From NCBI RefSeq assembly GCF_963675165.1, contig NC_087377.1, positions 7,829,122 through 7,893,121 of the forward strand: a DNA stretch of 64,000 nt, read 5' to 3'. The position numbers and the translations under genes are program-made. How positions within the stretch are numbered: position 1 is the stretch's first letter; the number at the start of each line of letters is the position of its first letter. Shown here in pieces: positions 6,760-52,497 of this stretch. The DNA is from Halichondria panicea (taxonomy: Eukaryota > Porifera > Demospongiae > Suberitida > Halichondriidae). A model generated the notes under the pieces. That model made no database searches. It worked only from the letters and a program-made list of their open reading frames with translations, and was not told the origin of the DNA.

Positions 6760-9700
6760 ATGAAAAACATGAACATACTCCGAAAGCAAGTCACTGTAAG
6801 CTGCCCATTGACAGTCTCTTGATGTATGATCCAACATATCCACATATACAGGTCCTGTTTGTAGTCATTATTGTTCATATTGGCTCAGAACAAAGGGGTG
6901 AGTATATCTCTAGGTGTATAACAACTCGATCTTAATAATTATGGCCCGCTAGATGTAGGACCTAAAAATCTGTCATAATAAATCGTAATAATTATATTAT
7001 AATAGGATGCATGGGTGTTTTATGAGGGCTACTGTCTTTCTTCTAATCACAACGCCACTCTAATAGAAGCGCCAAGTCAACAAAATAGTTTTCCAACTGA
7101 GCACCGACAACTTGTGGGTTTTACCTATCATTTGCTGGTTTTGAGGCTTTAATTTATATAATAATAATTATGTACAACTGCATGATAACCTCGTGCCTCG
7201 TAGAAATAGCTAATAGTTCTATTGCTAAACGCCAAACTGAAATTATAGTTTTTTCTTGTGCGCCACTGATTATAATTTTTTAAAAGACAGACGGTAGCTA
7301 TAATATAGCTAGGATGTAGAATGTCAGTAAATGATCATGGTGGTAGATCCGTTATTAATTTGGATAGTTTTCTTATACACAGTTCAGGCCTCTGCAGGGA
7401 CTGGTGCTGCCAGTAGAGAGAACCACTCGATTGGGTTGTATACCAGAGGGCAGGACTGTCAGCTAGGAATGCACTGTCGATGATGATGATGGTGAACGCT
7501 CAACAATATGGCGAGGGAGTGCATTCAACTGTCCCAGCAGTTCATCTGTGATCAACTTAGCTCATTCTCTATATGAACCTAATGGAGTACGTGGTTCTTG
7601 CGGCGACTTGTCTGGCATGAGTGTTGGGGTTAGTGGAAATAACTTTACCTCTATACTGACTCTAATAGCAACTATTGGGCTGAATGGAATGACTATTGAA
7701 TGTACTCGGAGTGGTACAGTTATCTTTGGAAATGATACCTTAAGAAGTGGAGGTAATTAGTCCAGTAATTGTCAACCACGAGAATGATTTCACATTATTT
7801 TATCCCCATGCAGCCCGTCTCTCTCCCCCTCAACGCGCCATGGTGGACATCACTTCTACTTCATCCCTCACTGTTAGTTGGACCCCACCCTCTGATACCA
7901 GCAACCTGGAGGGATACCTGTTCACAGTGACTGGAGAGAATTGTGGGTGTGAGAGTATGAATATCAGTTCTGACACTACCAGTGTGAGCTGTTCTGGTTG
8001 GATGGTTAATAATCAGACATGTTCCTTTGAGGTGAGGACCGTCTCTCAAGACTGTGGGTTCACCAGTGCCCCTGTGAATGAATATGTCGTACTGATGGGT
8101 AAGTAGCCTAATTTTTAGCATGCTTCTGTAAATACATGTATGCTGTAATTTGTGTAGTACCACCTGCACCAACACAACTACGGGTGGTGTTTAGTGCATA
8201 TAAAATCGAGGTGGAATTCATGCAAGCAGTAAGTAAAGTTGAAGAAATATGTAGTAATCTCAAATTATTTGTTCCAACAGATTCTATCTCCTCTTGGTTC
8301 CAACCTTGACTCTACTATATCCTACACAGTGATGGTGGTTGGAACTAACTTCTCAATAAACTTCACTGGAGTGATTTGTGATAACAACAGATGTAATCTC
8401 ACAATCCCTAATTCTCAACTCTCTACTTATAATGTCAGTTACATGTACATTGTCAGCGTGGTGGCCTCTAACATATTTGGCTTTGGACCTTCTGCAGTTT
8501 ATGTTGGTAGGTTAAAATAATAGGCTGAAAGTAATCCTATCCTTGCAATAACTGTTGTGTTCCTTGCCCCATGCACAGAATGCAACCCAGAAGACCTTGG
8601 TAACTCCACTTTTCTGAATGGACTTGGAAAGGTCAATGTATCAAACGGACTAATTCACTACAGTGGCGTGTCTCCTGACTCTATTGCAATGTTACGATGC
8701 AATGATGGGTACAGAGCAAACTCCTTCCTCAACAGGACGTGCATGTTTGATGGACAATGGAGTGAGGGGGCATTGGAGTGTGTTAGAGTGGATGGAAAAA
8801 CTGTTTCGCCTCGTAAGTTAGAATTGTCTTTCTTGTTACACTTGATCAAATTCGTTGTTCAATATCGATATCTACTTCTTTCCCAATCCCTTTCGATGTT
8901 AATGCGTTGTGGAGTTACATTGACTGTTATTGTAGATGGTTATTATTATGCGTTCTAAGTAGATGTAAGTTGAGAAGCCCTCATCTTTGAAACCAGTATG
9001 GACAAAACCATACTTTTTTCTCAGGTATCACACCTGCCTGTCCTCTATACTGTGCTGTTTTGGTTGGTGTTTTTGTGTCTGTAACCGTGGTCGTGTTGAT
9101 AATCGTTTGTATTGCGATTGCACTCTACATTCTGAAGAAGTATGGAAGAGAACGCTTCGCTTCAATCAACATGTCTGAAAAGGTTCAATATCGAGCCAAT
9201 CTAGAGTAAGTTTTAATCCAGTAAAAATGATCGAGTTTCTTCATCGATTATTGATTCTATACTTAGGAGTCCAAACACAAATGAATCATCACTGTCCCTA
9301 GTCGATACGCAGCCATCAAAAGCCAAGATAAATGTCAACAGGTGAGTATTGCATGCATGTACTCTACACATATAGCGGGTAATTTTCGTGAAAAAATTCG
9401 TTCAACTCGTAAAACGGTGGTTTTCATGAGTAAAAATTTCATTTAGTCTCGTTGCCTGCCTGCATTCCTACGTTCCGCTAAGCCACGCCTACGTTAAAAT
9501 TTCGTGGAGGTCAGCTTGCCTACGAAAATAACGAATATTTTACCCCACGAAAATTACCCGCTATACGGTAATCAACTGTAGATTATCTGATATCATGTGT
9601 TGTCTACAGGAGCGAGCCATCCCAATCAGCTCAGGTGGATACGTATGCAAACCCTGAAGACTTCATTAAAACACCACCACACATGCATCCACAAAAGAAC

Positions 9701-9790
9701 GAGGAAGCGGAGGATCTGAAATCCCTTAATGTAGAGATCACTAATGATGAAGTGTCGGTGAGCCACAATGTATGTTTTGTTCATGCATAA
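6760..9790 (+). pseudogene. Receptor copy A: signal peptide, Ig-like, FN3 x2, sushi, TM (disrupted)
   Basis: Exons by comparison with intact copy B: 6760-6795 (ATG), 6852-6897 (hydrophobic signal segment), 7383-7752 (Ig-like), 7814-8098 (FN3), 8158-8228, 8281-8506 (second FN3), 8579-8812 (sushi/CCP with the LRC, GY, RTC, GQWS, EC pattern), 9025-9205 (transmembrane helix, then a short basic stretch), 9267-9341, and 9610 to a TAA at 9788-9790. The Ig-like exon is broken twice. Relative to B it is 370 nt rather than a multiple of three, and the frame homologous to B meets TAG at 7464-7466 where B has a Tyr codon; the spliced frame meets TGA at 7481. The exon is phase 1-1, so skipping it would restore an open frame from signal peptide to tail. 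Copy A lacks the last two cytoplasmic exons of B. It is a pseudogene, or a gene expressing only an Ig-less form. Confidence 0.7.
9369..9570. mobile_element. MITE family M2, copy 2 (intron of receptor A)
   Basis: It lies in the intron between 9341 and 9610. Ends are TATAGCGGGTAATTTTCGTG and, inverted, CGAAAATTACCCGCTATACG. The homologous introns of copy B (35818-35877) and copy D (38121-38184) lack it, so it inserted after the receptor copies separated. Confidence 0.75.
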
Positions 9791-10842
9791 TTATGTCTGT
9801 AACTTTGGGTGTCGTTATTGTTGTGGTTTAAAGATGGCTTGTTTTAACTATTATGCTGTATAGGTGTATATAGTCTTTTTGTCTATAGCTATAATTGCAA
9901 ACATACGTACATGTACATGTACGTGTAGCAGCATTATTGTCGACACTGATAGCTGTATAATTATTAAGTACATGGGAACACAGAGCAGCTTGTCACTGTA
10001 GTGTAGTGTTGGCATTTAGCTTTGTATACAGTATAGACATGCATGCATTAATGTTGACATTATTAAAAGCTCAGGGAAATTGGGTCATTAATTGGAACTA
10101 CAACATTACTGATTTCGTGTATAAGCTTATAATTGTCTGTGTACAAATTATTGTGATTATCTGTACCTCTGTTTCCCTGTATGATAGCGAATCTATCCAT
10201 TGTTTGCTGTTGTGTCATTGTTAATTCACTTTCCTACGAATCACTGCCGAGTTTCACAACTACTATAAAGGATGTCGAGTGTCTATATAAAAAACAAAGA
10301 TTTGACTTGTGACGGAATGCCAATTTATGTATGACTGCAATTATGGTGATCCGTTAGTGTTGTACTGCTATAATAGCTATAGTGCATTGTACATTAATCA
10401 CATAATTATAATAATAATTATGCACACATGCTTTATGTACAGTGTGCTCAGTACGAGAACATTGAAGTAGCCAGACCTGTTGAAGTAACCTCTCAAAACA
10501 AGTGTACTCTGAAGTTTTTGATGCCTTGCCAAAAGGAAAGTCCAAAATAATTGTGAAGTAAGCCAAATAAACATAAAATCATTTACTCTCAGTTGACAGC
10601 TTGCGTAACTAAAGCTCCGTTTGATCACACATGTAGTGTAAATTATTATTGAATTTCATTGATTTGTTATTTCATTGATTGTTAATTATCATTAAAAATG
10701 TTCTTTCATGTTTCCATCATTTACCTGCCACGTATACTCACTGATAGACCAACTTTAATTGGTGCCAGAACTTCTGTTCAAGTATAATTAATTTTGGGTG
10801 TTGTTGACTTAACTATAGTAGTATAATTATACTTATTACCCA

Positions 10843-14944: not shown

Positions 14945-15075
14945 ACTGTCTCTTGTGGAACGGGGACATTTCCTGGAGAATTGGGTAGCGGCAATCGGCT
15001 AAGCACATTGGCGTTGCAATGCTGTGGTCCAGGCTTGTATGTGATAGTGTAGTCGTAGGCTCCCAAGGTCAAAGC

Positions 15076-21062: not shown

Positions 21063-21127
21063 GATGTGTCATGCATACATGCACATAACCATGTGTAAAA
21101 ATAATTATTGTTTTGCTTAATATTTAG

Positions 21128-21679
21128 ATGTCACCTCAGAGGAAAGTACTTATTGCAGTGCAAGTCATCCAAGCCATTGCTTTCTGCCACTCAAGGAATC
21201 CACCGCTTGTCCACAGAGACATAAAACCAGCTAACATACTTGTAAGTATAATATACACTATACTGAGCTGCAACTTGTATATGAACATCATTAATATTGC
21301 AGGTGGAGGAAGGATCAATGCGAGTATACTTGGGTGATTTCGGCTTAACCCGTATCTGAACGGGTATGGTTAGTACCAGAACATCAACAAATGGTGGTAC
21401 ACCGGGTTTCCAATCACCCGAAGTCCTCCAGTCAGGTAAAAGCTGCGATATATATGCTGTTGCCATGGGTGTGTTTTCATCGAGCTTTTTGGTGGTACCC
21501 CAGTATGGGGGAAACTCCCACTTTTGACAATTTTGACAAATTAATGTGGCAGTTAAAGGTAAAGCACCTGAAACTAACCATATGCAGTTAAAACTATATG
21601 TGATGACTGTATACAATACAATCCAGCTCTGAGACCTAAGGCCAGTGCTATTCTGAGAAGGCTCTTAACTCTTGCGTAA
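21128..21679 (+). pseudogene. Protein kinase C-lobe, copy K1
   Basis: Exon 21128-21241 carries the helix and catalytic loop ending HRDIKPANIL, with the catalytic Asp and the metal-binding Asn. Exon 21303 onward carries LGDFGLTR (DFG). In the same frame but beyond a TGA codon follow GGTPGFQSPEVL (the activation-loop/APE region) and DIYA. The tail NPALRPKASAILRRLL (C-lobe Arg) and stop TAA at 21677-21679 need a further frame change. Upstream N-lobe exons are absent: the left border is MITE M1. Relative to K2 there is a 9-base loss in the APE helix (near 21436) and a CCATG insertion at 21463-21467. Both K1 and K2 share the TGA after DFGLTR, so the ancestor was already damaged or that region is spliced in a way I cannot see. 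The active enzyme would have been a Ser/Thr-type or TKL-like kinase. Confidence 0.75.
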
Positions 21680-27797: not shown

Positions 27798-27910
27798 GTG
27801 TTGCTTTTACGAATTCTATGAGTGTTCCATTCCCAATAAAATCGATCCAAGTCAAATTGAATGAGATGAAAGAAGCAAAATCGGAGGCAATCTCTGTTGG
27901 AAGAGTATAA
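27798..27910 (+). CDS. Possible last exon, unknown protein
   Basis: After TTTGCAG the frame reads VAFTNSMSVPFPIKSIQVKL and ends ISVGRV with TAA at 27908. Its 3' part is repeated at 57861-57940 with the frame kept. There is no recognisable domain and no linked upstream exon. Confidence 0.25.
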
Positions 27911-29618
27911 CGTAATTATAGTATGCAAATGCATGCATATAATTATATATAATTATGTTGTAATAAGTATGATTCAATGAAAATAGACATCATAGCAATT
28001 ACCGTTCAGGGATGCTTGTGTTATCGTACAAGTCATTGTACATCAAGCCCTATATAATTATCACAGAAATTGGAATTATTATAATTATGTTGCAATCGTG
28101 GATAATTATATCATGCATGCATGTGCATGTATTATTCTAGCTTTAATTATACAATACACTTGCATCTACACGCATGTGTATGTTAAAATTATTATATATA
28201 TTTAAGACCCCGAGGAGAAGCACGATACATGGTAATAGAGATCTCTACTTACTTGAAAAAGTCAATTCACCAATAAATGCAAGATTTTAGCAACTGACTC
28301 CACAGTGCCTCGATTCTCTATGATTATTTATAATTATTATGCTAAAGTATAAGATACAGGTACGTATATATATAATATAATTATACTTGGTTTGATGTTG
28401 ACCTCCCGTAACGGAAGCTGCTCAACCTACTCCTGCTGTCATTATGATTTCTTCGGAAGAATGGCTGAATGTAGGCCATGCAGATCACAGTTCTCAGTTC
28501 CATATAGTCACAGCGTAGCAATCGAGGGACTATACGTACTCCTGTGAATATTTTACTCGGTATAGTTACAAGCAAGCCAGCATGCTTCTTTACCATTCAC
28601 ATGCAGTCTCGACACTCAACAAAATAAGAATTTATCAATTTGGGATTTTTGTTTGTTGTACCCACTTTCAGCCACATAATACGCCTTGAGTATCTACGTG
28701 ATAATAATGTGCATGGTCATTATAATTATAACTGCTGTGCATGTATAACTTGTACTCACCCATCAATGCAGCCATGTATAGAAAATCCATATGGTTTCAG
28801 TTTGTCATGCCCATCACAATGCCACATCTCATTTAGGCCCTATAAATTATGTTCATAAAACAATCACAATCTGAATTTGACAGCGGGCATGAACAATTAG
28901 TATACCTTAACACAATATTGTCTCCGTTTCAAGTGATGTGACTACCGTGCTAGACTTCCTTCTGCATGGGTCTAAATTTGCCAATATAATTATAGTCCCA
29001 TAACTGTCTTCCTATAATTATATACCAGTATGAAATGTATGCAAATGCCAGTTATATATACACTATATGCACATTTATACCTTGCCACTGGTTCATTGTA
29101 CGTCTGTCTAATTCTTTAATTTGCCACATTCTCCTATAACCAATAAGCTTTCCTGATCCTGCAAGCTCTCTCTGTATGCATGCACGTAGACTTCATGCAT
29201 GTAGCCTTGTAGGATATAAAGACAGCAACCATGCCATATCATTACCTTTATTAACTTGTTTACTCTCCTTATATGCCTAGTTTGTTGATATGAGTTGCGT
29301 CACACTCTTCTTCTTAAATTAAGTTGCTGCAGTAAAAGCTTGAGAGTCCTCATTGAAATACAAATTCCATGGAGACTTCTCAGGAACTGCAGTATTGTTT
29401 TGTAAGGGTAGCCTTCCTTAAAATACCTGCTAACCAAGGTCTTTCTGAGCTCACTAACCATGGCTAGATTGTTCGCGCAAGATTATGATTTTACTTCTAA
29501 ACTGGAATGACCTTTGACCTCACCGTATTTGCAAACGGCCTCGCTTCCAATGAGTGGTGACCTCTGACCTCTAGTAACTAGGAAGTGAATTGGCTTCTGT
29601 ACTAATTAACACAAATTA
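27829..29618. repeat. Segmental duplication S2a (partner 57859-59638)
   Basis: About 1.79 kb is shared with S2b in the same orientation, nearly base for base. Differences are mainly small indels of words such as ATGC, CATG, TGCA and ATAATTAT. The segment ends 88 bases upstream of the receptor B start codon, so in this copy it also serves as that gene's upstream region. Confidence 0.9.
29508..29570. promoter_or_regulatory. Two DR1-type nuclear-receptor sites
   Basis: TGACCTTTGACCT at 29508-29520 and TGACCTCTGACCT at 29558-29570 are each two TGACCT half-sites (AGGTCA on the other strand) spaced by one base. DR1 is the classical site for HNF4/RXR-class receptors, and sponges have receptors of this lineage. 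They lie about 200 and 140 bases before the receptor B start codon. Both are conserved in S2b at 59529 and 59579. Function is inferred from the motif alone. Confidence 0.45.
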
Positions 29619-29705: not shown

Positions 29706-32700
29706 ATGAGCAAGCAAATTAACTCAAGAATACTGACTAATCTTGTAAGTAAAGCATGCATTGTGTCACTGCCCATACCTTTTATATACTACCGGCTTTG
29801 AAGCTCAGACTGTGTGTATATTAAACCGAAATTGGATAATTATTACAGGTGCTGTGGGCTATTTATATTGCTCAGATTGGCTCAAAGCTAAAAGGTGAGT
29901 GAGGCTAGATATACCCCTAGTCTAGGTACATTAGATGTGCAAGTAGTGTAATTTGTGTATTGTGCATTGTTCAGGTTCCCTGTTTGCAGTATTCATACTG
30001 CTATTTTTTGTTAACCTTTGCATTTGTTGCTATAATACGACATATTTTCACAGTAAATTGTGTGTGACCCTTTAGCTCAGTGAAATTAATGTTCATAGCG
30101 TTTCTAATTACGCGCAAGTGGTATCATTAGCCTCCTTCATTGCACTGCTACTGACTGCTTGCGCATGTGCAAAATAGATATTTTTTCCCATAAAATTTAT
30201 CGGAGAAAATATCCTAAAAGTCATACACAGAGCTATATAAATTATATAGCTATGTATATATGTATATAGCCAGCTAGAGACAGAGCTATAGGTTTGTTGT
30301 AAAGCTATTTTCTTTCTGACACCTCATTTTTGTGGCCATTTGGGACACAGCACACTACTTAGCAGTGGCGTAGGAAGATTTTTTGCAAGGGGGGCTTACA
30401 GTAGTCTGGCCACGCCCTCCCCAACTTTGTATTCGACTGAAAGAGACTGGAATTCGAGACTAGGCTCATACTGTCATAGATCAATCGTTATCTCTGTGGT
30501 AGATCTATCACTTTGCACTTTAGACTTTTGAAACCTAGCCCATTATGAAATAATCACGTAATTTACAGTTTAATAGCATGCAGCTGGCTGCAGCCAGCCA
30601 GCATGCTGTACTGTAGCTTAGCTAGCTCAACAGTTCAAGCCAGAGGAGGTACGACAAGCGGTTAAGTTCACGTGGCTGTTATTTCTTGATTGAGGCAAGA
30701 AAGACAAAAAAGTCGTTAAAAATACATTCCAATGACGACATTCAACTGGTGGCAAGTAAGCGCCATAAAGAGACAAGTTTAGAGCATAAAACTCAGTGAA
30801 TTTGTTGCTGGCTAGTAGCTAGAGTTTTACAAGTACAGATTAGATTTGTTGTACGAACCAAGGCTCAGATGTTGGCAGTGATCCTATCCTGAATGCAGGC
30901 ACAGAATACTTATTAAATACTCTAAAACAGAATTACACTAAAAACAATAATATCTCAAAATCTAAGTGGTGGTTGAAACTGGTTGAAAAGCTATTTCACA
31001 TCAGTATAAGCAATCAACCAGCCTGATCTTAGAAACATCAAGTGTATTTCGAAAGATACACGCCAAACCAAATCCACTATCAAAGTACACAGTCTTGAAT
31101 GATATTCATGCACAAGTTAATGAGATTCTTGATCCTTTTGGCTGGTCATGTGACCGTGTCGTACCTCCTCTGAGTTCAAGCTAAACATTGCTCTCCAACA
31201 AGGGGGAGCTCCAGCCCCTGGAGCCACCCCACTTCCTACGCCACTGCTTAGTATTAGCTTTATCATAGGTGCTATAGGATGACAAGCATGAAAAAGTGCT
31301 TTCTAGCTACTTCAAGTCACAAAAATCAAGATTATATTTTCTTAATTTCCAAATGATACTCACCATCAGGGGGCATAATTATGTATGTATAAGTGTTGGA
31401 GGGGTCTTTGCATTAGACACAATAAGTTTCCCGGGTTTTCGCAGGAGTTTTAAAGGCGAAACACGGATGGTTTCAGCATACGTGTTTCCCCGCGGTTTTA
31501 ATCGAGGCTTACTTCCAACGTGGGGGTCTAAACCATGATAATTGTTTTTGCTGCATGTAAAATGTCGATCCATGAGCAGTTTTGCTGCTAAACGTCAACT
31601 TCATGAACTACTTGTGGCCATTTGGGACACAGCACACTACTTAGACAGAATCCTATAGCTACATGTATGTTATAGTACGTATTTAGCTAAACTAACACAA
31701 GCATGAAAAATGCTCTGTGTTAGACTAGCTACTTCACAACAATCAGGATCATATTTTTTCATTTCCAAATGACACTTACCATCGAGGGACACTTGGAGGG
31801 GTCTTTGAGATGCATGCATAAGACTCAATAAGTTTCCCGGGAAAGTTATTATCAAGTTCCCGAGGTAAAAGCGAAACACAGATTGTTTCTGAGCTACCAC
31901 ATAGAATTCATTGTGGAAGCATCACGTGGACCACTTCCGTTGCCAATCCCTCTCTATTCAACCTATATGGTTTTACAGAGTATAATTATACAATGTTATC
32001 CAAAGCCCCCCGGATACCGGAGTGATCAAGATTTAACGCATGTGCAAGCAGTCAATACCAGGCCCACTTCTCTGATGAAGTGTGACCTGGGATTGATAAG
32101 GTGGCATATTTTTGCGGATGTTATTTCAATTAGAGTAAAATCGAAAAATAATTGTACTGGAAAATACAATGATACGTACCACTAGCCTCGATCCCAGGTC
32201 GCACTTGATCAGGGAAGTGATAATAGAAGCGCCAAATTCACTAAATTGTTACTACGATTGAGCGCCAAATAAATTCTGGAATTATTTTTTGTTGGTACTT
32301 ATGCCGCGGTGCGCATGCCCAAGCGAGGTATACGGTAGTGTGTGTGTATGTGGCTGTCTGTATATAGACTGCTTACATGCATCTGTTCAAGGATCAACTT
32401 AGTACTAGTAGTTAGCTTTGCACTAGAACACTAGGTATTGGTGGCTGCAAGAATGAGAAGAGAGCTGCAAGGCTCTACTGTACTGATGCAGTATAACCAT
32501 TAATTTTAGCTTTTAGACTTTGTATTTTTGTCATCCTTTTTAGCATCAATCATGTCCCACTCTTTACAGATGCAGCAAAATTACCGTAAGAACATTATGA
32601 TATCTGTGTGTATTAGCAATAGCCAGTAGCTTTATGTTATGTAGCTCTGACACATCCACCAAGGCATCAGCACTCGCTGTCCTTTCATTAGATTATAACG

Positions 32701-35700
32701 CGGCCTGAAATTGAAATTGAAATTGAACTGATACTCGTCGAAACAACTACTAGTAACCTACATTATATAGCGCCAAACTGGAAATATTGTTCTATTTATG
32801 CGCCACTGGAAAATTGTAATTAGTTATATAATATTAAATTAGGAGAAAGATGATAACTAGACATAAAATTATAGAATTCAGACCTGACCAATCAGATCAA
32901 GGATTGAAGGAAATTAAGGATGACAAGAAGCATATGCGTTCTATGCAGTCGGACGCATTTATATAGTCAACCTAACTATATGGCTGCTGTTAGTCAGTCA
33001 AGGAGCTGTAGTAAGTCAAGTTGACTGCACGAGTGCTCCTAGGCCACTTCTGGCTACTTGCAGTATCTAGAGTATCCACTTCCGTTCGTTGTGACGTCAT
33101 TGTTTTACCACCACAAACGCTGTTATCCATATCTGCGCATGCAGTCGACACCACAGGCCCACTTACCTGATGATAGTGCAGCCTGAGATCGAGGGTAAGC
33201 TCACGACTACATGCAAGCTGCAGAACTAGAGTGCATAGTGACTATTGCTGTTGCTGAGTCAGCTTATTCTGTTCTTGCGCTATGTTATGCTTATAAGCCA
33301 CCGACTGTGAAATTAATAATAATGCTGTTTGAGTTTAGAACTATTTCGAAAGGACCTTTGTTTATTTTGCTGTGGTGCTTAGCTAATTAGAAAGCACATG
33401 GACTGTACTCTTCCGATGGCCTCAAAAAATTCTTTAAAGCAGTAAACGTGCAGAAAGAACGCATGCCATTGAATATAGTCTCACAAGCCACGCTCGTTCA
33501 CATGAAGGGTTTGGCAACAGTGTGCACGTCCCCAGTGGAATTTAACCCAGTCCAGTTAAATTATATGGAATAAGCTCTGAATTGTTTATGTTGCAAATAA
33601 AAGAAAGAGTTGTACAGAAAATAAATGGCCGATTAACAGTTGACTTGTCCTGTTGGAAATGTGGTGTGTAGTGTTAGAAATCGTTTTATGTGAGATTATT
33701 CTCTTTTATGTCTGCAGGAACTAAACTAACATGTTAGGCATATTGATTTATTAAATTGCGATAGCTATTTAATCAATGAGACACTCAAGCTAGCGTTATT
33801 TATATGCATGTACAGTGTAGTATATACCTGCTTCTGTTATAACAATGCAAATTTTAAATATAGGTATAAAACCGTACCGTAATAATTGTTTCTTGTACAT
33901 GTACCTATATACAGTCCAGGCTACTCCAGGCCTCATACTGCCAGCAGAGAGAGAAATTGGACTGGGTTGTATACCAGAGGGCATGACTGTCAGTTATGAA
34001 TGCACTGTCACTGATCCAACAGATTCCCCTGTGGCCAATACAGTATGGCTGGGAACTGCCTTCAACTGTCATTCAGCAGCATCTGCTACAACGAACAATC
34101 GGATCACTCTAGCTCATAGTCAGTTTCAGCTTGGAGCTGTTGCTGGTGATTGTGGAGATTTGTCTGCAATGATTATCAGATTTATTGGAAATGAATACAC
34201 GTCAAGACTGGTTCTAACAAACACTACCGGGTTGAATGGAATGACTGTCATATGTACTTTGAGTGACAAAGCTGTTGGAAATGACACTGTCAAAATCGGA
34301 GGTGAGTATAACTACATGTATATCTACCTCACTGTGTCTAACTTTTGACAGCCTCTCCTCCTCCCCCTCGAATTTCCATGGTGGAGGTCACTTCTACTTC
34401 ATCCTTCACTGTCAGTTGGACCCCGCCCTCCGATATCAGCAATGTAGGGAGCTACGTGTTCACTGTGACTGGAGAGGACTGTGGATGTGTAAACACCAAT
34501 GTCAGTTCTGACATAACTAGTGTGATATGTTCTGATTACATGGTCAATGGTCAAACCTGCTACTTTGAAGTCAGTACTATCTCTAAAGACTGTGGTTTCA
34601 ACAGTGAATCTGTGAATGAATCTGTGTCATTGATGGGTAAGCACTAAGTACATGTAGCTTACTTGTCAGTTTGTCATCAGTCTAGCTGCGTGTACATTTT
34701 GTAGTGCCTCCCACACCCGAACACTTCATGGTAACGTTTACTGAAGATGAATTAATAGTGGTGGGATTCATGCAGCCAGTAAGTTAAGATGTGAGGAAAT
34801 AACTGTTTAAAACTATTTGATTAGATTGTTCCCCATCTTGCTATAACCTACACTGTGATGGTTGGAACCAACTTTTCAAGGAATTTCACTGAAGTGACTT
34901 GTAACGACACAAGCAGAAGATGTAATCTCACAATCCCTAATCCTAGCAACAGTTACAATGTCAGTGTCGTGGCCTCTAACATATTTGGCTCTGGACCTCC
35001 TGCACTTTATTTTGGTAAGATGTTAGATCCCTCCTACATGTACCCTTGCAATATAACTGTTGTGTTGCTTGACCCATGCACAGAATGCAATCCAGAAGAT
35101 CTTGGTAGTAACCAGACTTCTCTCCGTGGACAAGGAATGGTCAATGTATCTAACGGACTAATTCACTACAGTGGTGTGTCTCCTGACTCTATTGCAACGT
35201 TACAATGCAATGATGGGTACAGAGCAAATTCCTTCCTCAACAGGACGTGCATGTTTGATGGACAATGGAGTGAGGGGGCATTGGAATGCGTTATAGTGGA
35301 TGGAGAAACTATTTCGCCTCGTAAGTTAGAATTGTCTTTCTTGTTACATTCATCGTGCGTTATTGATATCAACCAATGTCTTTCATTCTATTGTATCGTG
35401 GTGCTTTGGAAATTACGATACATACACTTCTTCGAGTTACATTGACTTTGATTGAGGTGTTTGTAAATTGAGAAGCCCTCATCTTTGAAACCAGTATGGA
35501 CAAAGCCATATTTTTTTCTTAGATACCATGCCTGCCTGTCCTCTTTACTGTGCTGTTTTGGTTGGCGTTTCCGTGCTCATATTGATAATCGTTTGCATTG
35601 CAATTGCACTCTACATTCTAAAGAAGTCCGGAAGAGAATGCTTCGCATCAATCAACACTTCTGATAAGATTCAACTTTGTGCAGTCAATCGAGAGTAAGC

Positions 35701-36625
35701 CTGTTTTTTCATCAATCATAATTATTCTATACCTATTTATAGGAGCCCAACCACAAATGAATCACCACTCTCCTCAGTTGATACGCAACCATCGAATGCC
35801 AAGATAAACGTAAACAGGTATATAAAATTATCTGAAAATCACATAGTCAACTGCAGATTATCATGTTTTGTCTACAGGAGCGAGCCATCCGAATCCGCTC
35901 AGGTGGATACCTATGCAAACCCTGAAGACTTCATTAAAACACCACCACTCATGCATCCACGAAAGCAGAACGAGGGGGCAGAGGATCAGAGGGATGTAGA
36001 GATCACTGAAGCGCCGGTGAGCCACAATTACTTGTCAGTATGTGTTCCTCATGTTTTTTAATAGGTCGGTCATATATAACCTTGGGTGTCACTATGGTCG
36101 TGCGGCTTAAAGTTAGCTTGTTTTGGCTATGACTGTATATAATTATAAGACTTGTAGTCTCTTTGTCTATATAATTATAGCTAGTTGCGGACATACGTAC
36201 ATGTACATGTAGGTGTAGCATCGATATAATTATACATGTAACTAACCATTTAACCCTTCATCGTGTATAATGATGCGACTATTATAATTGGCTTATTCTT
36301 GAACAGAATCTGATCACAGGCCTTGGTGCATCAAGCATGGCAAATCCCACTCAACAGGTATATATATACATAATAATGTCTTCGATATAATTATTTATAC
36401 AGTCATGTATATATATAGGAACCAATCTTGCTAAGCATTTGTGATGGTCCAATTAGAATAAAGCGAAATGAAGCGTATGATCCAGTGACATTGCTGACTG
36501 AAAATGATGCCTACAATATTTTAAATATCAGAAGCGGTACGTGCAGTCAGATGACGGAAAGAAATTCTAGTCCACCCCACATATATGATGAGCCGATGCT
36601 TCTAACTCGTATACCAGCTGTGTGA
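29706..36625 (+). CDS. Receptor B: Ig-like, FN3 x2, sushi, TM, Tyr-rich tail (intact)
   Basis: Twelve exons: 29706-29744, 29849-29894, 33915-34301, 34352-34636, 34705-34778, 34825-35014, 35084-35320, 35523-35694, 35743-35817, 35878-36016, 36307-36357, 36419-36625. All junctions are GT/AG and in phase; total 1902 nt, 633 aa plus stop. Residues 1-28 form a signal peptide (basic start, then VLWAIYIAQIG). An Ig-like domain follows (GCIPEGMTVSYEC, GMTVICTL), then FN3 one (SWTPPSD), FN3 two (YNVSVVASNIFGSGP) and a sushi domain (LQCNDGY, RTCMFDGQWS, EC). Next are a TM helix (AVLVGVSVLILIIVCIAIAL) and a cytoplasmic tail of about 175 residues with no enzyme domain. Tail tyrosines: TYANP (YxN), AYDPV and AYNIL spaced like an ITAM, and IYDEP (YxxP). 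Many NxS/T sites fit a glycosylated ectodomain. It is probably a cell-surface receptor signalling through SH2 adaptors; ligand unknown. Intron 2 is 4 kb and full of repeats; the rest are about 50-290 bases. Confidence 0.85.
30363..31246. mobile_element. hAT-like MITE in receptor B intron 2
   Basis: The ends CAGTGGCGTAGGAAG and CTTCCTACGCCACTG are perfect inverses over 15 bases. CTTAG flanks both sides, suggesting a 5-base duplication as in some hAT lineages. The flanking word GACACAGCACACTACTTAG recurs unoccupied at 31627-31645. Confidence 0.75.
31275..31895. repeat. Imperfect direct duplication in intron 2
   Basis: Blocks 31283-31480 and 31700-31895 share ACAAGCATGAAAAA, ATTTCCAAATGA, TTGGAGGGGTCTTTG and AATAAGTTTCCCGGG in order. 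The upstream word GGCCATTTGGGACACAGCAC is at 30334 and 31616. The unit was duplicated before the hAT-like MITE entered the first copy. Confidence 0.65.
32300..32690. repeat. Repeat R1 copy (short) in intron 2
   Basis: It starts ATGCCGCGGTGCGCATGCCC and ends AAGGCATCAGCACTCGCTGT. It keeps the GTGTGTGTATG tract, TTCAAGGATCAACTT and GCACTAGAACACTAGGTATT of the 2521 copy, with the middle deleted. Confidence 0.6.
32691..33914. other. Rest of receptor B intron 2
   Basis: I see no exon. A CCCACTTACCTGATGATAG stretch with GAGATCGAGGG near 33160-33195 resembles the CCTCGATCCCAGG family of small palindromes. Confidence 0.4.
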
Positions 36626-36924: not shown

Positions 36925-38336
36925 GTGACTCTATTGCAACGTTACAATGCAATGATGAGTACAGAGCACTCTCCCTCCTCAACAGGACCTGCGTGTTTGG
37001 TGGACGATGGAGTGATGATGCATTGGAGTGTGTATAGTGGATGCAGGTAAGTTAGATTGTCTTTCTCGTTACATTATGCAACATCGATATCTCAATACCT
37101 TTCATACTATTCGTAGTGCTTTAGAAAATAAATTACGTACATTCAGCCTATTGTGGAGTTACATTGACTTTTAAATGTAGGTTTTATTGTTATGTTCTGC
37201 TTGATGTGTTTTATGGAAGTTGAGAAGCCCTCAACTTTGCCTATTTTTTCTCAGAAATCACGACTTCCTGTCCTCTGTACTGTGCCAGCTGTTTTGGTTG
37301 ATGTTTTTGTTGGAACCATGGTCATGTTAATAATCGTTTGTATTGCAATTGCACTCGGCATTCTGAAGATCTATGGAAAAGGAAGCATCGCTTCAAACAA
37401 AACGTCTCAATTTCAGGCAGTCAATCGAGAGTGATCCAGTAAAATGAGTTTCTTCATCGATCATTGTGATATTCTGTACTTAATAGGAGTCCAACTACAA
37501 ATGAATCACCACTTTCCCCAGTCGACAAGCAACCATCAAAAGAAAAGATAAATATACACAGGTGAGTTGCTATAATCAACAGATTATCATAATTATGCAA
37601 GTTTTGGAAAACTACTATTTCGCCTCATAAGTTAGAATTGTCTTTCTTGTTACTTGATCAAATTCGTTGTTCAATATCTACTTCCTTCCCAATGCCTTTC
37701 GAATTATTGTTATAATGCGTTGTTATTATGCGTTTTAAGTAAATGTAAGTTGAGAAGCCCTCATCTTTGAAACCAGTATGGACAAAACGATTTTCTTTTC
37801 TCAGGTATCACGCCTGCCTGTCCTCTGTACTGTGCTGTTTTGGTTGGTGTTTTTGTGTCTGTAACCATGGTCGTGTTGATAATCGTTTGTATTGCAATTG
37901 CACTCTACATTCTGAAGAAGTATGGAAGAGAATGCTTCGTTTCAATCAACATGTCGAAACGGTTCAATTTCAAGCCAATCGGGAGTAAGTTTTAATCTAG
38001 TAAAAATGATTGAGTTTCTTCATCGATCATTGATTCTATACTTAGGAGTCCTATCACAAATAAATCACCACTTTCCCCAGTCGATACGCAGCCATCAAAA
38101 GCCAAGATTAATGTCAACATGTGAGTATTTATATTATGTACTCTATAATCAACTGTAGATTATCTGATATAATTTTGTCTACAGGAGCGAGCCATCCCAA
38201 TCCGCTTAGGTAGATACGTATGCAAACCCTGAGGACTTCATTAAAACACCACCACACATGCATCCACGAAAGAAAGAGGTGGGCAGAGGATCAAGGGGAA
38301 GTTCTTACTGTAGAGATCACTAATGAAGAAGTGCCG
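36925..38336 (+). pseudogene. Receptor remnants C/D with two TM exons
   Basis: Pieces homologous to receptor exons: sushi 36925-37044 (a one-base loss puts TAG after the last Cys region, at about 37034), TM exon 37255-37430 (a CAGC insertion near 37291 shifts the frame), tail exon 37487-37561, a second TM exon 37805-37984, tail exon 38046-38120 and tail exon 38185-38336. The second TM exon keeps AVLVGVFVSVTMVVLIIV but loses one base near 37953. The final exon has TAG where B has Gln (GCTTAGGTAG, about 38206). The order sushi-TM-tail-TM-tail means either exon duplication or two collapsed gene copies. The D half is closest to receptor A, including the 3' flank. Confidence 0.8.
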
Positions 38337-40728: not shown

Positions 40729-41650
40729 ATCTATTGTACAACATAACTATACAGGTATAGTTATGTTGTCTACATGTACATATATTATAGTCCTCTTTTA
40801 AATGGTAATATCTATGTACGTGCCCCACCTATCACAAAATGTGATGCAACATGGACAAATACTTGTGTGCACATTATGTATTGTCATTGTTGAACATAAT
40901 TATTGTGGTTCCAGTAAATACCAAGGGAATAATTAGTATATCCTTGGTAGTTTTCAGTATAAATCTAGATGTACTCTTACTTTACCATGCAAGCTAGGTT
41001 ATGATTTGAATGTCACATCAACTATTATACTCATCTGCATACATGTATACCAAAGTTTGGCTTTTTCAGATCATGAGGATATATAATTATAGTAAGATAT
41101 AGACAGGGGCAAAACAAAAGCTTTCGAATCGTCAGCTATGTTATTATTTTGAGAAGAAGAGGATATGTGCAGAAACACCTTTACTATACCAGTGTGAGCT
41201 GTTCTGCATGGTTCAACTCCTGCATGGCGGTCAGAACTGCGAAAGGTAAAATGGCTTACAAAGATTGTTGATTCCGCAGTACTCCTCTGCATGAATGACC
41301 CCTCATTGAGTGGTGAGTTTGGCTTGTTAATATTATTGCAAATGTGTATGCCCACGTTGATTATATAGTGTCCATCTTAACCCCTCAAGTGATAAAGCTT
41401 TTCTCCTGTAGATAAGTGAATTAAGCTTTGCACATTACCTATAATGCATTTTATACAGGAGAAAGACCTCGAGCTCTCAGCTGTGAGAGTATGCCGATAA
41501 CCTCTACCAACGGCCCCCACAAAAAAAGAAGAGAAAGCTTATTCGAAACACAAGTGTGCTATGTGTGATGAGTGCCAATCCCATGTAGCCTATAACTACC
41601 CTATATCGATCATGAGCATAAACTTTCTTGTAGAGTATTATGTTATAGTT

Positions 41651-42233
41651 AATTACTAGGCAACCAGTCAACAACTGATTTATTTACTGCAAAAACAGCA
41701 AAACAGTCATTTGAACATCAATGGAGACAGTCAAACTTGCTCTCACAGCCACTTGTGCCTCAGAAAATGCAGTTAGAACAGTTACAGCTGTCAGGTATGA
41801 GAGCTAGCTAGGTTCTAGACTACTGGAAGCTAAAACTTTGACCAGAACCGCCCACCACCAATATTCAGCAGCTGCCGTTTCAAATTAGTATTGCACAAGT
41901 CTACCAACACTGCTCTACCTCTGAGCCACAGCTTGACTAGAAAAACAGAGCAAGGATTGAACTGCAGTGTTTCAAGCCTCATGAACATGTAATAAGTAGC
42001 TTAGACTGCTAGCTAGCTCAGGTCAATATGACAATAGCACAAAACATAGTCTACAAGCCTTTTTGCATGCTGTATTGCTATTTTACTGTGTACAAATTGT
42101 CAAGATGATTCAAAAGTTGAATAGTGCTTGTAGGAAGTAAAAATATGAGCCATATTCCATACTTCCCTGGGGGAAGTAAAATATGGCTCATATTCACTGG
42201 AAATCACCTAGGATACGGACTGAATCAGTAAAT
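41651..42233 (-). mobile_element. SINE-like repeat, copy 1
   Basis: It is the reverse complement of 59639-60222 at high identity over about 580 bases. On the minus strand it carries TGGCTCAGAGGTAGAGC, which resembles a tRNA A box. Duplicon A lacks it between 12413 and 12432. No open frame is supported. Confidence 0.6.
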
Positions 42234-43046
42234 AAGTGCAGTTATAGGCTTGGTGTCCTGTTAACATGTGTGGACTTATACAAGGAGTTCTCCTACTTAT
42301 ACCAAAAGAGTGCAACAGCTGCGTAATGCATGTATCTAAAATTGAATAGAATTGTGATAGCTGCAAAGAGATATAAGAGTGCAGACTTAATAGTGATTGT
42401 ATTTTGGGGCAATGATGCTATCCTATACAGGAGAGATAGAGTGCAGTACAGACTAATAGTGAGTTGTATATGTATGCCCTCTTCTCTTTTATACACCCTT
42501 ACTTATTAATTATGGCATTATACTATAGAGGTGCTGTATCTGCAGTCTCTTTAAAAGGAATGATTTAACGACGCACACAGCTTGATGTAGTATAGCATAA
42601 GTTATAATGGGGGGAAATGATGCAAAGTATTCTTGAAATGGTTCCTCTCCTACAGGTATTTCTGCCACTCCTGGTGTGTTCTGTAGCCCAGCTAAGGTGT
42701 TTTATTGTATACTTAGAACTTGTTACGTTTTGGGATGGTTTGGGGACTAACCACTGCATTTACCTCAGATACCCTCCCACCCATGTGAGTATAGTGACTG
42801 CGGTACAAAACTCAATACAACATGCAGATGTACAGATTGTCAATAGTAATTCACCTTAATTGATTGCACACATTGCGAGGATTTTCACCTTTCCCAAGCT
42901 TCAGTGACATGGTCACCACGACTCACCAGTGCTCTATATGTGTCTCGTTTTTCTCCCAAAGTTGGTGCTTATCAGTGTACGTACTCTACTTTTAATAGAT
43001 CGGCTTGCTTATTATATATAGTGTCCAGTCCTAGTTGGTTAATTAT

Positions 43047-44513: not shown

Positions 44514-45322
44514 AGATGAAGCAAGTGGTGTGCGAAGCTCCTCCACATGATGTTGTCAACATGGTGGTTGGGTCAGATGTTCTTGTAGTAGGTATGTTAA
44601 TTCACAAATTGCGCAAATTGAGTATATTATAATATAGCAATTGTTAAAATACCAATTGTACTCTCGTTCATTGCACTCTCGTTCATTGCAATTATGATGC
44701 AATAAATGTTTGTCGGTTCCAGCATAGATAGTGGAGGATGGGGATTGGCAACTCACTCACGTGAGCTTATGTTTGCAATGTAGCTGAGCCAGAGCTGAGC
44801 AGCACATCCGCTATTCGCCTAGGTATTGCGCGGGAGGTTTTACCAACACACAAAACAGACTTGCCTCTCTTGAAGTAGAGGTCAACAGCATTCATAACTG
44901 CATGTACATACCACACCAACAGTAAAGTAGGCATCATATGGAAACCACGGGAAAAAACAAAAGCGTGATTTATTTCAGATCTCCAGTGTTTTGTCTCTAT
45001 TTGGTAAGTTTTTTTGTCTTTTGTACCTTTGTAATCTTCTGGATAGCTAGATTATGAAAAGAATGATACAGATATTTGATTAGAAGCATTGTTAAAGCAA
45101 TACTTTTGTTATGTATTATGCTTATAAAATATGAGATTGTTTAGTGGAATTAGATACCCCCATTGTTCTCCCTCTGTCAACAGTTCCTTAACAGCTCAAA
45201 CACTTTTTCTTTGCCGTATGGAGTCTATGATACTATATGTATCGTAATGAGCTCTAATTCTGTCTAGACGATGTTTGTACTGTCATATTTACATGTTTGT
45301 TTCATTACTAATTATTGCAGCA

Positions 45323-47960
45323 ATGCCTCGAAAAGGCTGCTTTCAGCATAGGAAAGCACACCTGAAGAGTCGAAGGGAACAGCCTAAACGTGTAGATACA
45401 AGTAATATTCAGTTGCCGAGTAGTTCCTGGAGTTGCCAAAAGACGACTAAGAAGGCAGTCTATTATAAAATAGAGACAAGTGGTGAAGCCTCTGTTGAAC
45501 CAGCTATTATTACCCATACAGTAACCATTAATGATAATGGAACGTGGATCCTACATGTGTACAAGAGAGAAGTTACAAAATGTGATGAAGTAAAGCAGTT
45601 TCCAGCTTCCCTTACTCAAGCTCAAGTTTCAGAGTTACTTTTGATATTGGACCGTATGACGCTGTGTGCTGGTCATCCAGATGAGAATTTTGTGATCATG
45701 ATACAATCAAAGAAGGGAAAAATAATTTCACGTACCGGTGATGTCACTTCATATTTAGATGAAAATCCTGTTGAATTCTGTGGGAAAAAATATCCCAAAA
45801 CTGTTCGAAGTGCTGATTGTAGTGCTATCGCAGCTGGGCGATGTGGTGCATGTGTGAAGTATAGAGCTATTTTATAATTATTATTTTCTATATATAAACA
45901 ATGGAAGAAATCGTGTACAACTAGTCCCAGTAGTCATTGCAATGAAAGATACCTAAAAACCCCAGAAAAGAAGGACAAAATGTCGAAGCTACGTTCCCAA
46001 GTTAATGCCTTGGACAAGAGAATCTTAAGATTACAAGAGAAAGTTGCAACGCTAATTGAGTCTAGAGGAGAGCCAGTTGGTGATGATTTGCATACTGATC
46101 TATGTTCAATTATGCAAGAAAATAACGATAAAATATGCGCAGATTTTCCTGAAGGAATCTTCCAATGGTATGGAATGAGCAGAAAAAGGCTGCCTCTGTA
46201 AAGAATGGTACAGGAATGAGGTGGCATCCATTAATGATTAAGTGGTGCGTAAACCTGAAACTTATTTCTTCGAGTGCTTACAATGCCTTGCGCACAAGTG
46301 GTTTCTTGAAACTCCCATCTGAAAGAACTCTTCGAGACTACTCAAATGTGTTTGAGAGTAAAGTAGGTTTTCAAGATGAGGTAGACAAACAATTGCTTGA
46401 TCAAAATCTTTGCCACCTTCAGGAAAATTTGTTGGTTTAATTCTTGATGAAATGAAGCTTAAAGAAGGTATTGTGGTATTGTGTACAACAAGACGAGTGG
46501 CAGTGTTATTGGTTTCACAAGCATTGGTGATATTAATGATGATCTACTGAAGCTTGAGAGAGAAGAAGATGATCATTATTTGGTGAAGCAAGTCTTGGTA
46601 CTAATGGTACGTGGTACTATGTTTAAACTGTCATTCCCGTACGCTCATTTTGGGACTGAAGGTATTACGGCAGACTTGCTCTACCCAATTGTTTGGGAAG
46701 CCGTTAGAAGGTTAGAAGTTAAAGTAATATCTGTGACTGCCGACGGTGCAAGTCCAAACAGGAAGTTTTTTAGAATGCACCAAAACCCCAAAGTCAACGC
46801 TATACCTACATCCATAAGGTCCGGAACCCTTACACTGTTCAGGGTCGTTGGGTTTATTTCTTTGCCGACCCACCACACTTGATGAAGACGATTAGAAATT
46901 GCTGGTCACATTCAGGATTTCAGGGTACTCGACTAATGAAAGTAAGAAAAAAATTAATGTTCTATCTATTTTGTGTAACTGTACATGCTGTGTAATTTAT
47001 AGATATCTGGAAAGTTCATCGAATGGAGGCATCTCATTAATCTCTATAACAAAGTTTCAAGTACCGCTTCCACTTTAAAAGGCTTATCTCTACTTCCCAA
47101 ACTAAAGCTAGAGCATGTCAAGCTTACTTCCTTTTCAAGAATGAGGGTTGATCTGGCCGCACAAGTAAGTCTACTTATTAATAATAATACTTGTACATGC
47201 ATTTGCGCAATGTGAATTAATTATCTTTGATATCAAACACATGCATTGCATAGGTTTTGAGCCAGAGTTTCGCGAACGCTTTTCATTATTTTGATGACCC
47301 TGATACAGTTGAAACTCAGCGTTTTGTTTCCTATTTCGACAAATTTTTCGATTGTTTAAATGTACGCAGTAAGGTTGAGTGGGTCGGTAAACGAAAACCA
47401 AATTTGAAGCCATACATTTCCCCATCAGATGAGCGTTTAAACGTAAGATACTTATTGTCATCAATTCTTTGATATTGCTTTTTTTATACAGTGGCTTGAA
47501 AATGATTTTTTAGCCTACTTTCATGAGTGGGAGGACTCGGTGAAAGATTTACCACCAACTGAAAAGAACAAAATGACACTCTCTAGGGAGACGCTGGAAG
47601 GTATTCAAATTACAGGTAATTAAGGCTAATTAGGCCATTAACTCACACTGATAAGTTTTTATTTATTTATGTAGTCAAGTCTTTTGTGGAGATGGTGAGA
47701 TACCTACTCAGCTTGGATTCATCCTCGTTTCTGTTGAGTGAACGAATATCTCAGGACCCCTTGGAACATTACTTTGGAAACCAGAGGGGGTGTGGTGGAA
47801 GAAATGATCATCCCACTCTACACCAGTGTGTTAAGAATGCTCCAGCGCTTTGAATGAAAAAATCTTATGCATTAGATCAAGTAAAAGGAAACTGTAGGCG
47901 TAAACGTCTTTTAAGTAAAGATATGGAAATAGATAGCACTCACTACCAAAACGTAAACAA
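45323..47960 (+). pseudogene. P-element/THAP9-type transposase (decayed)
   Basis: The N-terminal exon starts MPRKGCFQ and ends with a Cys-rich CGACVKYR motif (to about 45870). A coiled-coil stretch follows (LRSQVNALDKRILRLQEKVA). The P-type core has RWHPLMIKWC and LPSERTLRDYS, then ILDEMKL and TADGASPNRKFF with the first two catalytic Asp, then DPPHLMKTIRNCW. Introns occur at about 46940-47000, 47165-47254, 47442-47492 and 47615-47675. The C-terminal part has DPLEHYFGNQRG with the acidic residue typical of this family, followed by KGNCRRKRLL beyond a TGA at 47851. Frameshifts occur near 45880, 46190, 46435, 46475 and 46790. It would cut and paste the element; this copy cannot make active enzyme. 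Confidence 0.85.
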
Positions 47961-50492: not shown

Positions 50493-52497
50493 TCAATCAG
50501 TTCTATATCCGTACCTATCAGGTTCCTTTCGAATTCGGGATGATGTTCGAGTAGGAATCAACGGTGATTCAGGTTGTTCCGGTTGTTCAGGTTGTTCAGG
50601 TGGTTCCGGTTGTTCAGGTGGTTCAGATTGGTCAGGTTGTTCTGGTTGTACAGGTTGTTCAGTTGGCGAGTCTGTCTCGGTTCCATCTGGTTCCATTCCA
50701 GAATCGAGCTGATTACTATTTTCTGTTGGTATAGCATCATTGTCAGTTTCGATTCGTAGTTTCAATTGATCAGCATGTTTCCTAACTCTCTGGCCATTCT
50801 CCAGGAGCAACCCATACATTACCGATCCTAGTCGCTCGGTGATTGTTCCAGGTAGCCAACGCGGCCCCCTTACTTAGTTCTTAGCATATACGAAATCACC
50901 AACACTGAAATTCCGTAGCTTGGCATGACTGTCATGTCCTCTCGTCTGATTATCTCTGCATGTATCAGCTTTGGTCTGTAGATGAGGTTGAAGGCAGTCC
51001 AGGAGCGATCGTAACTTCCTCCCAAACATCAGCTCAGCAGGAGAAACTCCTGTACTGCTGTGTGGAGTCAAACGATAATTGAATAGGAATCGTGAGATTT
51101 TTGTTTCCAAAGAACCTTCTTGTAACTTCTTCATTCCAGCCTTAAACGTTTGTACCGATCTCTCAGCCAACCCATTCGAAGCTGGGTGGTATGGCGGAGT
51201 CCTAACGTGTCTCACTCCGTTGCTCTTGAGAAACTCGGCAAATTCACTGCTTGTGAACGTTGTAGCATTGTCTGAGACAATCACTTCTGGTAATCCCAGT
51301 GAGGCAAATGACTTCCTCATGAGTTCGATCGTAACAGCACTCGTCGTAGTGGTAGTCATGTGTACTTTCAGCCATTTCGAATGTGCGTCAGACATAATCA
51401 AAAAACATTTTGCCCATAAAAGGACCGGCATAGTCCACATGGACTCGAGACCATGGTTTGTTTGGCCATGCCCATGGATGCAAGGGTACAACAGGGGGTG
51501 TTTTCTGTTGAGTCTGGCATATCACACAAGATTTGCATACTCCTTCTAATTCTGCATCAATTTTCGGCCACCACACATATCCTCTAGCCAAGGATTTCAT
51601 TCGTACAATGCCTGGGTGGGCCTCATGCAACATCGTTTTTACTCGGCTTCGACATTTAGGGGGTACAACTACTCGACTACCCCACAACACACAGTTTTGT
51701 TCAACACTTAGTTCATACCTTCTTCTCCAATAAGGTCGTGTCTCTTCCTGTTCGGGGCATTCAGCTGGCCAACCCGTTAAGATCCAATCTTTCACTTTAG
51801 CCAGCACCGGATCATGACGAGTCCACTCTCCAATTTGTGTGCTGGTCACTGGTGTAGAGTCTAGAAACTCCATGAGATGGACCACTTCTGGAACTTCGGG
51901 TATTTCCTTCCTGGTGTTTGGGAGCGGCAGACGACTCAAGGCATCCGCATTTGTGTTCTCCTTCCCGGGCTTGTAGCTGATGGTATAGGAGTAAGCACCT
52001 AGGATAAGTGCCCACCTCTGAATCCGTCCTGAAGCCATTGTTGGGGTGGCTTTTGTTTCACTGAAAATGTGAGTTAGGGGTTTGTGGTCAGTTTTAAGTT
52101 CAAACTGTCTCCCATAGAGATACTGATGGTACTTCTTTACACCAAACACTATGGCCAAAGCCTCCTTGTCAAGCTGTGAATATTTCTTTTCAGTTTCTGA
52201 TAGTGTTCTCGAGGCATAGCAGATTGGTCGCTCGTCTCCATTCGCCATTACATGTGACAAGACAGCCCCTACTCCGTATGGTGAGGCGTCGCACGACAGA
52301 ACCAACGGTAACTTGTTATCGAAATGGACTCGTACTCTTGAGGAATTCAGGAGGTTCTTCACATGGTCAAAGGCTTGTTGTTGTTTTGAACCCCATTTCC
52401 ACTTTTTCTTCTTCTGGAGTAGGGCATACAGTGGAGCCAGAACAGAGGCCAGGTCGGGCAGAAACTTGCCGTAATAGTTCACAAGACCTAAAAACTA
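50493..52497 (-). pseudogene. G2 RNase H and integrase region
   Basis: Frame 52482-51388 gives RT connection (NYYGKFLPDL), RNase H (LSCDASPYGVG, YSQLDKEALAI, TDHKPLTHIF) and the integrase zinc module (LHEAHPGIVRM, CKSCVICQ), up to HVDYAGPF. A shift near 51400-51430 leads to frame 51491-50874 with SDAHSKW, VSDNATTF and GLAERSVQ, so the DDE residues are all present. Frame 50819-50493 holds a C-terminal tail of PEQ-type repeats (about 15 Pro-Glu-Gln steps) ending RTSSRIRKEPDRY. A TAG at 52497-52495 separates it from the upstream RT. Confidence 0.8.

Follow-up and report, generated by a model that had tools for sequence, protein, structure and literature searches.

A gene for a candidate kinase-less FN3/sushi receptor with tyrosine motifs in its tail, in the sponge Halichondria panicea

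The stretch of the Halichondria panicea genome analyzed here (64,000 nucleotides (nt) of contig NC_087377.1, hereafter the window) contains a gene, referred to as gene B, which occupies positions 29706-36625 of the + strand and whose 12 exons, 1902 nt in total, hold a frame open to one terminal stop and encode a product of 633 amino acids (aa). On balance, we read this product as a type I single-pass receptor without a kinase, which would signal by adaptor docking at the tyrosines of its cytoplasmic tail. By its sequence, gene B would belong to a known class, i.e., kinase-less module receptors with SH2-docking tails, and an immune-receptor reading is plausible. No second intact copy was found in the window, and both other members of the family there, paralogue A (6760..10550, + strand) and fragment C (36926..38336, + strand), are damaged. 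An earlier note on this DNA had described an immune-type or adhesion receptor with an immunoglobulin (Ig)-like domain and a tail resembling an immunoreceptor tyrosine-based activation motif (ITAM); the intact single-pass receptor gene without an enzyme domain stands, a strict ITAM does not, and the Ig-like domain is unconfirmed.

The 12-exon, in-phase model claimed for gene B was rebuilt exactly, with gt..ag borders at 11/11 introns. Exon 1 (29706..29744; this and the other exons of gene B are given on the + strand) carries the ATG and the beginning of a presumed signal peptide, the hydrophobic core of which follows in exon 2 (29849..29894). Beyond intron 2 (29895..33914, + strand; 4020 nt), exon 3 (33915..34301) encodes the N-terminal domain D1, exon 4 (34352..34636) a first fibronectin type III (FN3) domain, exons 5 and 6 (34705..34778 and 34825..35014) a second FN3 and exon 7 (35084..35320) a sushi domain. 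Exon 3, exon 4, exons 5 and 6 together, and exon 7 are each bounded as a unit by phase-1 introns (1-1 phase), as shuffled extracellular modules usually are. Exon 8 (35523..35694) holds the transmembrane (TM) span (aa 431-449, about 35555-35611) and the start of the tail, which continues through the juxtamembrane exon 9 (35743..35817), exon 10 (35878..36016) with the motif YANP (Tyr514, codon 35912-35914), the 17-codon exon 11 (36307..36357), which is in phase, and the terminal exon 12 (36419..36625) with YDPV (36476), YNIL (36512), YDEP (36584) and the stop.

Paralogues were sought by tblastn and self-blastn, which gave the two further copies, both on the same strand as gene B. Paralogue A has exons homologous to exons 2-10 of gene B in the same order, followed by another terminal exon, but two differences disable its exon 3, namely a length of 370 nt vs. 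387 in gene B, which breaks the frame relative to B, and a TAG codon in frame. Fragment C consists of half a sushi exon, a pair of TM exons, and exons 9-10, in which a stop falls immediately ahead of YANP. Because exons 2-10 of A, each with ag before and gt after it, have these sites at homologous positions, 8/11 gene B junctions (2-3 to 9-10) are independently supported by both splice sites. At junction 10-11 the donor alone is kept, in A and C; at junction 1-2 A has the acceptor and a possible donor; at junction 11-12 neither splice site was seen in A. Exon 1 shows no sequence conservation in A; an ATG exon about as long was placed there by eye (6760-6795). The joining of exons 2 and 3 over a distance of 4 kb, on which the earlier note had staked its model, passes as far as DNA shows, with homologous exons and sites in A. 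When exon 2 and its flanks were slid ungapped over the + strand of the window, the best non-self match lay in A at 6847 (41/57; runner-up 30), extending over 6847-6903 with both splice sites included, and blastn puts exon 2 at the same site (E 4.4e-4), located 0.5 kb upstream of A's exon 3. Intron 2 has a counterpart of about 0.5 kb in A, and two inverted-repeat pairs within it may explain part of its extra length in gene B.

A Pfam search of the 633-aa product found fn3 in two stretches (whole-protein E 8.5e-8; 32.7 bits, cut-off 25) and Sushi (E 2.5e-6; 28.2 bits, cut-off 20.7), and listed no enzyme family up to E 1, the two other listed families being below their cut-offs. Searched as single exons, exon 4 passes for fn3 (25.4 bits, cut-off 25) and exon 7 for Sushi (30.9 bits, cut-off 20.7), whereas exon 6 alone fails (15 bits). 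Hydropathy gives one strong membrane span, that of exon 8, together with a hydrophobic stretch of moderate strength (aa 9-20), which by hydropathy only is compatible with a signal peptide. Gene B thus encodes both domains of an FN3/sushi cell-surface receptor over the Pfam cut-offs, together with one TM span. From the previously listed domains, the two FN3s, the sushi domain, the TM span and the absence of an enzyme domain are recovered and the signal peptide fits the hydropathy, whereas the Ig-like domain is unconfirmed. A search for relatives of gene B outside the window gave none in viral contigs and 8 pattern matches in bacterial/archaeal contigs, none confirmed; since the collections were viral and bacterial/archaeal, this search says nothing on spread in animals.

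The resemblance of D1 to an Ig domain is confined to a partial signature. Pfam listed no family for D1 up to a limit of E 10, although most matches above 0.1 are removed by the filters of the tool, and no match to the PDB was significant, the best having E 0.47 in one search and 0.3 in another, in which the two best matches were antibody heavy chains (E 0.3 and 0.47, insignificant). Its residues include a Cys, a Trp 15 residues on and L-x-L-(6)-N-(5)-Cys, i.e., a signature of Ig E-F strands that is incomplete, since it lacks the Tyr normally standing two before the Cys. The Cys-Trp-Cys signature was found in 158/200000 shuffles of D1 from B and 137/200000 from A, for a pattern written post hoc, and is a hint only, because it was defined after viewing the sequence and because A and B are relatives. 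AlphaFold decides nothing about D1, because a Pfam-accepted FN3 control was modelled as badly (mean predicted local distance difference test score 40 from a single sequence, vs. 36 for D1 from two sequences).

The tail of gene B, about 180 residues, contains exactly four tyrosines, and all motifs claimed for it, i.e., YANP in exon 10 and YDPV-(8 residues)-YNIL and YDEP in exon 12, were found in the rebuilt protein. Immunoreceptor tyrosine-based inhibitory motifs (ITIMs) have the pattern [I/V/L/S]xYxx[L/V/I], hemITAMs an acidic DEDG-type run preceding one YxxL, and Grb2 prefers YxN. No ITIM was found in gene B, the -2 residues of YDPV and YNIL being E and D (by eye), and the sequence ENDAYNIL is acidic upstream of YNIL yet has no DEDG match (by eye). 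The odds of the tail motifs were estimated from 100000 shuffled tails, with the motif classes chosen with the sequence in view. All four tyrosines have P, I, L or V at +3, as in 0.5% of the shuffled tails; YDE[PVD] occurred in 0.3% of these, and a loose ITAM pair (L/I/V) plus two YxxP in 10/100000. YDEP is, by sequence, apparently the sharpest docking match among these motifs. The Nck SH2 consensus is given as pY-D/E-x-V/P (PMC8187788), the DOK1 peptide EDPIpYDEPEGL is listed among the ligands of Nck1, with Abl1 and a number of Src-family SH2 domains bound as well (PMC3514216), the Crk SH2 domain requires Leu or Pro at +3 (PMC3514216), and the Grb2 preference for YxN is partly given in a table (PMC3514216). 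A literature query pairing YDEP with Nck returned no match.

Alternatively, gene B could encode an adhesion or uptake receptor with tail motifs for trafficking, YDPV and YNIL being read as YxxPhi and DPVTLL as an acidic dileucine, both of which are classes of clathrin-adaptor (AP-2 type) sorting signals. The tail does hold two YxxPhi motifs and three [DE]xxxL[LI] matches. However, at least one YxxPhi is present in 62%, and at least one [DE]xxxL[LI] in 21%, of the shuffled tails, and because they are so common there, the mere presence of these motifs is uninformative. In addition, YANP and YDEP are left unexplained, and we regard the trafficking explanation as unlikely.

Rather unlikely, too, is a mispredicted 3' end, in which exons 11-12 would be unused, the product would end elsewhere and YANP would be the sole tail motif. 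Such an error would be consistent with the lack of any counterpart of exons 11 and 12 in A or C, where blastn similarity to B stops at 36220 (vs. A) and 36129 (vs. C); with a tblastn search of exon 12 in the window, which gave chance matches only (best E 0.27); and with the absence of an AATAAA within 375 nt of the stop, where there are TATAAA variants only. Codon usage was compared by leave-one-exon-out scoring, in which an open frame of exon length was set against overlapping noncoding windows. Exon 11 is indistinguishable from noncoding DNA by this test (1080/16518), which is weak for short exons, because exons 5 and 9 also score only modestly (417 and 385 of 16392 noncoding windows score as well). 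Exon 12, however, is open for 68 codons and is equalled by 68/15600 noncoding windows, compared with 298/15816 for exon 8 and 161/15996 for exon 10, which supports exon 12 as coding at least as well as these two paralogue-supported exons; an earlier scoring, in which the training exons were scored on themselves, gave 12/12095 for exon 12. Moreover, all three copies (A, B and C) keep the donor site of exon 10, and a further exon is therefore expected.

Paralogue A itself ends in a different exon (10443-10550), which codes CAQYENIEVARP... with QYENI and is followed by an AATAAA at 10566, so that its tail has YENI, of the YxN class, vs. YDPV-YNIL-YDEP in gene B. With two copies only, one of them broken, this may be either a swapped signalling exon or simply a rearranged gene end. 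A second frame of A's last exon (10443-10560, + strand) reads VYSEVFDALPKGKSKIIVK to a stop, with another tyrosine motif, and may reflect a frame change in a broken copy.

A true ITAM receptor, acting via a tandem-SH2 Syk-family kinase, is possible, but this is the least favoured reading of the motifs and a very unlikely one. The 8 residues between YDPV and YNIL fall inside the usual ITAM spacing of 6-12, and loose pairs occurred in 1.4% of the shuffled tails (strict pairs in 0.9%). Sponges have Syk-family kinases (PMC9601881), that of the sponge Amphimedon serving as an outgroup in the same paper. However, the strict form, YxxL/I-x(6-12)-YxxL/I, has 0 matches in the gene B tail, where YDPV has Val at +3 of the first site, and a strict ITAM is thus not borne out. 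Furthermore, a six-frame translation of the window contains the loose pair 62 times (non-overlapping, one being gene B) and the strict pair 32 times, and the pair is present in neither A nor C.

Descent from a receptor tyrosine kinase having lost its kinase domain is highly improbable. The best solved-structure matches of the FN3 pair are, weakly (E 0.0009 to 0.008), angiopoietin-1 receptor FN3 repeats, which would fit such an origin, but FN3 repeats are ubiquitous. Pfam gives no cytoplasmic kinase domain for gene B, + strand Pfam scans gave no kinase family either in the 9.6 kb downstream of B or in 6 kb covering A (such scans being weak for split fragments), and the one kinase HRD site in a six-frame motif search of the window, at 21212, lies upstream of B. 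A protein kinase fragment with VHRDIKPAN was observed at about 21120-21250 (+ strand; Pkinase E 1.8e-7, 31.2 bits, cut-off 31.7), in a segment duplicated at 56192-56880 with 92% identity, the HRD site being detected in the first copy only.

The codons of A and B were compared by the Nei-Gojobori method with our own script, giving point estimates of nonsynonymous (dN) and synonymous (dS) divergence. The dN/dS ratio is 0.48 for the ectodomain (0.51 for D1, 0.46 for the FN3s plus sushi), 0.32 for the TM span plus tail and 0.27 for exons 9-10. Among exons 2-10 it ranges from 0.14 to 0.71 per exon, with the lowest value of the shared exons in exon 9 (0.14 over 24 codons); the rows for exon 1 (1.13, 12 codons), exon 6 (0.71, 61 codons) and exon 2 (0.63, 15 codons) are weak. 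This pattern fits a reading frame that constraint would have maintained through some, if not all, of its history. D1 is 56% identical between A and B, and is not clearly the most diverged part, because its dN of 0.37 is equalled by that of exon 5. Across 7374-9757 of A vs. 33906-36016 of B, dS is 0.72 in exon 3, 0.58 in exon 4, 0.78 in exon 5, 0.28 in exon 6, 0.20 in exon 7, 0.35 in exon 8, 0.63 in exon 9 and 0.20 in exon 10.

Several observations weigh against a kinase-less docking receptor. First, the expected conservation of the tail tyrosines in the paralogues holds for YANP, which is common to A, B and C inside an identical VDTYANPEDFIKTPP, whereas the three tyrosines of exon 12 (YDPV, YNIL and YDEP) are in neither paralogue. 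Second, even the conservation of YANP is weak evidence of constraint, because the 25 codons around it show few differences (synonymous + nonsynonymous: A-B 2+2, A-C 3+1, B-C 3+3) and because the broken copy C keeps YANP. Third, short motifs easily arise by chance, with at least one YxxP in 32% and at least one YxN in 29% of the shuffled tails. Fourth, the downstream Pfam scan is insensitive to intron-split fragments, since it also missed the half sushi exon of C. Finally, gene conversion, and not constraint, may be the cause of the low dS in exons 6-8 and 10, although the dS of exon 9 (0.63) does not fit a smooth fall; with exons that are perhaps gene-converted, the look of a variable head and a constant tail does not prove that the head was under selection.

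The closest published plan found for gene B is that of the fester co-receptors (FcoR) of Botryllus schlosseri, which gene B resembles in plan, as judged by description. These are type I proteins of 520-610 aa with an IgV domain, a sushi domain, two C2 Ig domains, a TM span and a long tail carrying ITIM, hemITAM or core motifs, which alternative splicing exchanges at some loci (PMC12065747). Gene B is alike in its type I topology, size (633 vs. 520-610 aa), signal sequence (presumed in B), sushi domain and single TM span, as well as in its long tail with core Y-x-x-I/L/V motifs, which YDPV and YNIL satisfy, and in being part of a multigene family whose tail motifs vary between members. In contrast, the FcoR order of IgV, sushi and two C2 Ig domains differs from that of B, i.e., D1 (Ig unconfirmed), FN3, FN3 and sushi, and gene B is without an ITIM by sequence. 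An FcoR-type ectodomain was not recovered either, with no animal Ig family in the Pfam listing of gene B.

Other systems share fewer features with gene B. The ectodomains of the Hydractinia Alr receptors are of the immunoglobulin superfamily type, and nephrin, itself an adhesion receptor, combines Ig with FN3 domains. As in gene B, tyrosine motifs occur on the Alr proteins, candidate recognition receptors of a non-bilaterian animal, for which, however, ITIM and ITAM-type motifs are reported (PMC12065747), whereas B has no strict one. The oyster CgIgIT2 is likewise an invertebrate single-pass receptor with a tyrosine-based tail, but has five Ig domains and a classic ITAM (PMC11999971). The Nck/Crk docking proteins DOK1 and nephrin share a YDEP/YDEV-type docking site with gene B (PMC3514216, PMC8187788), a likeness limited to a single motif. 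The combination of FN3 and sushi (CCP) modules is found in sponge SRCR/sushi/FN3 mosaics, including Halichondria (PMC8242945), and in the mosaic multiadhesive protein of Geodia (known from a title cited in PMC10855680), whereas no SRCR domain is in the Pfam listing for B. Among the matches listed for literature on sponge ITAM/ITIM receptors, judged by titles and abstract openings, there was no sponge receptor of the gene B design, which is not proof of absence.

A 1.8-kb block (27829-29618), ending 87 bp before exon 1, is duplicated at 57859-59639 with 92% identity, and its second copy is directly adjoined by a 586-bp element (59637-60222), which is inverted and 99.7% identical to 41650-42235; beyond this second block, a search for exons 1 and 2 of gene B gave no convincing copy of either. 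The 1.8-kb block may be a mobile element, since it contains a weak integrase core match at about 28741-28836 (- strand; rva_4, E 4.1e-5, 23.8 bits, cut-off 26). Elsewhere in the window, long open frames at 50874-54131 and 13722-14998 (-) resemble the reverse transcriptase/RNase H/integrase of gypsy-type long terminal repeat elements, as named by eye, a 208-aa open frame lies at 45251-45877 (+ strand), in which, from 45326 onward, Pfam gave no family above its cut-off, and related repeats of about 0.7-0.9 kb, roughly 80-95% identical, lie at 54561-55334 and 60794-62534.

If gene B is a kinase-less receptor that signals by adaptor docking, D1 would bind a ligand or another cell, with FN3-FN3-sushi as a spacer. 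Contact with the ligand or cell would cluster the receptor, and a Src-type cytoplasmic tyrosine kinase would phosphorylate the tail, which would then recruit SH2 adaptors, of the Nck or Crk class at YDEP and of the Grb2 or Crk class at YANP, while YDPV and YNIL would act as core YxxV/L motifs. The docked adaptors would link the contact to the cytoskeleton or to gene expression. The membrane-near tail would be common to the family, and the terminal signalling exon would vary between copies.

A broader proposal, which we hold to be distinctly unlikely as a whole, is that of a tandem family of kinase-less receptors, present as early as sponges, in which the terminal signalling exon was swapped (YENI in A; YDPV-YNIL-YDEP in B) behind a common membrane-near tail and a diverging recognition part. 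Such a family would parallel the Botryllus fester co-receptors independently, with exchanges of tail motifs altering its signal output. For allorecognition loci of cnidarians and tunicates, kinase-less receptors are reported to signal through phosphotyrosine motifs (PMC12065747). If transcribed and phosphorylated, gene B would be a concrete receptor for testing such signalling in the lineage of this genome, and the contrast between the A and B tails raises the question of whether other genomic copies retain the ectodomain but differ in their last exon.

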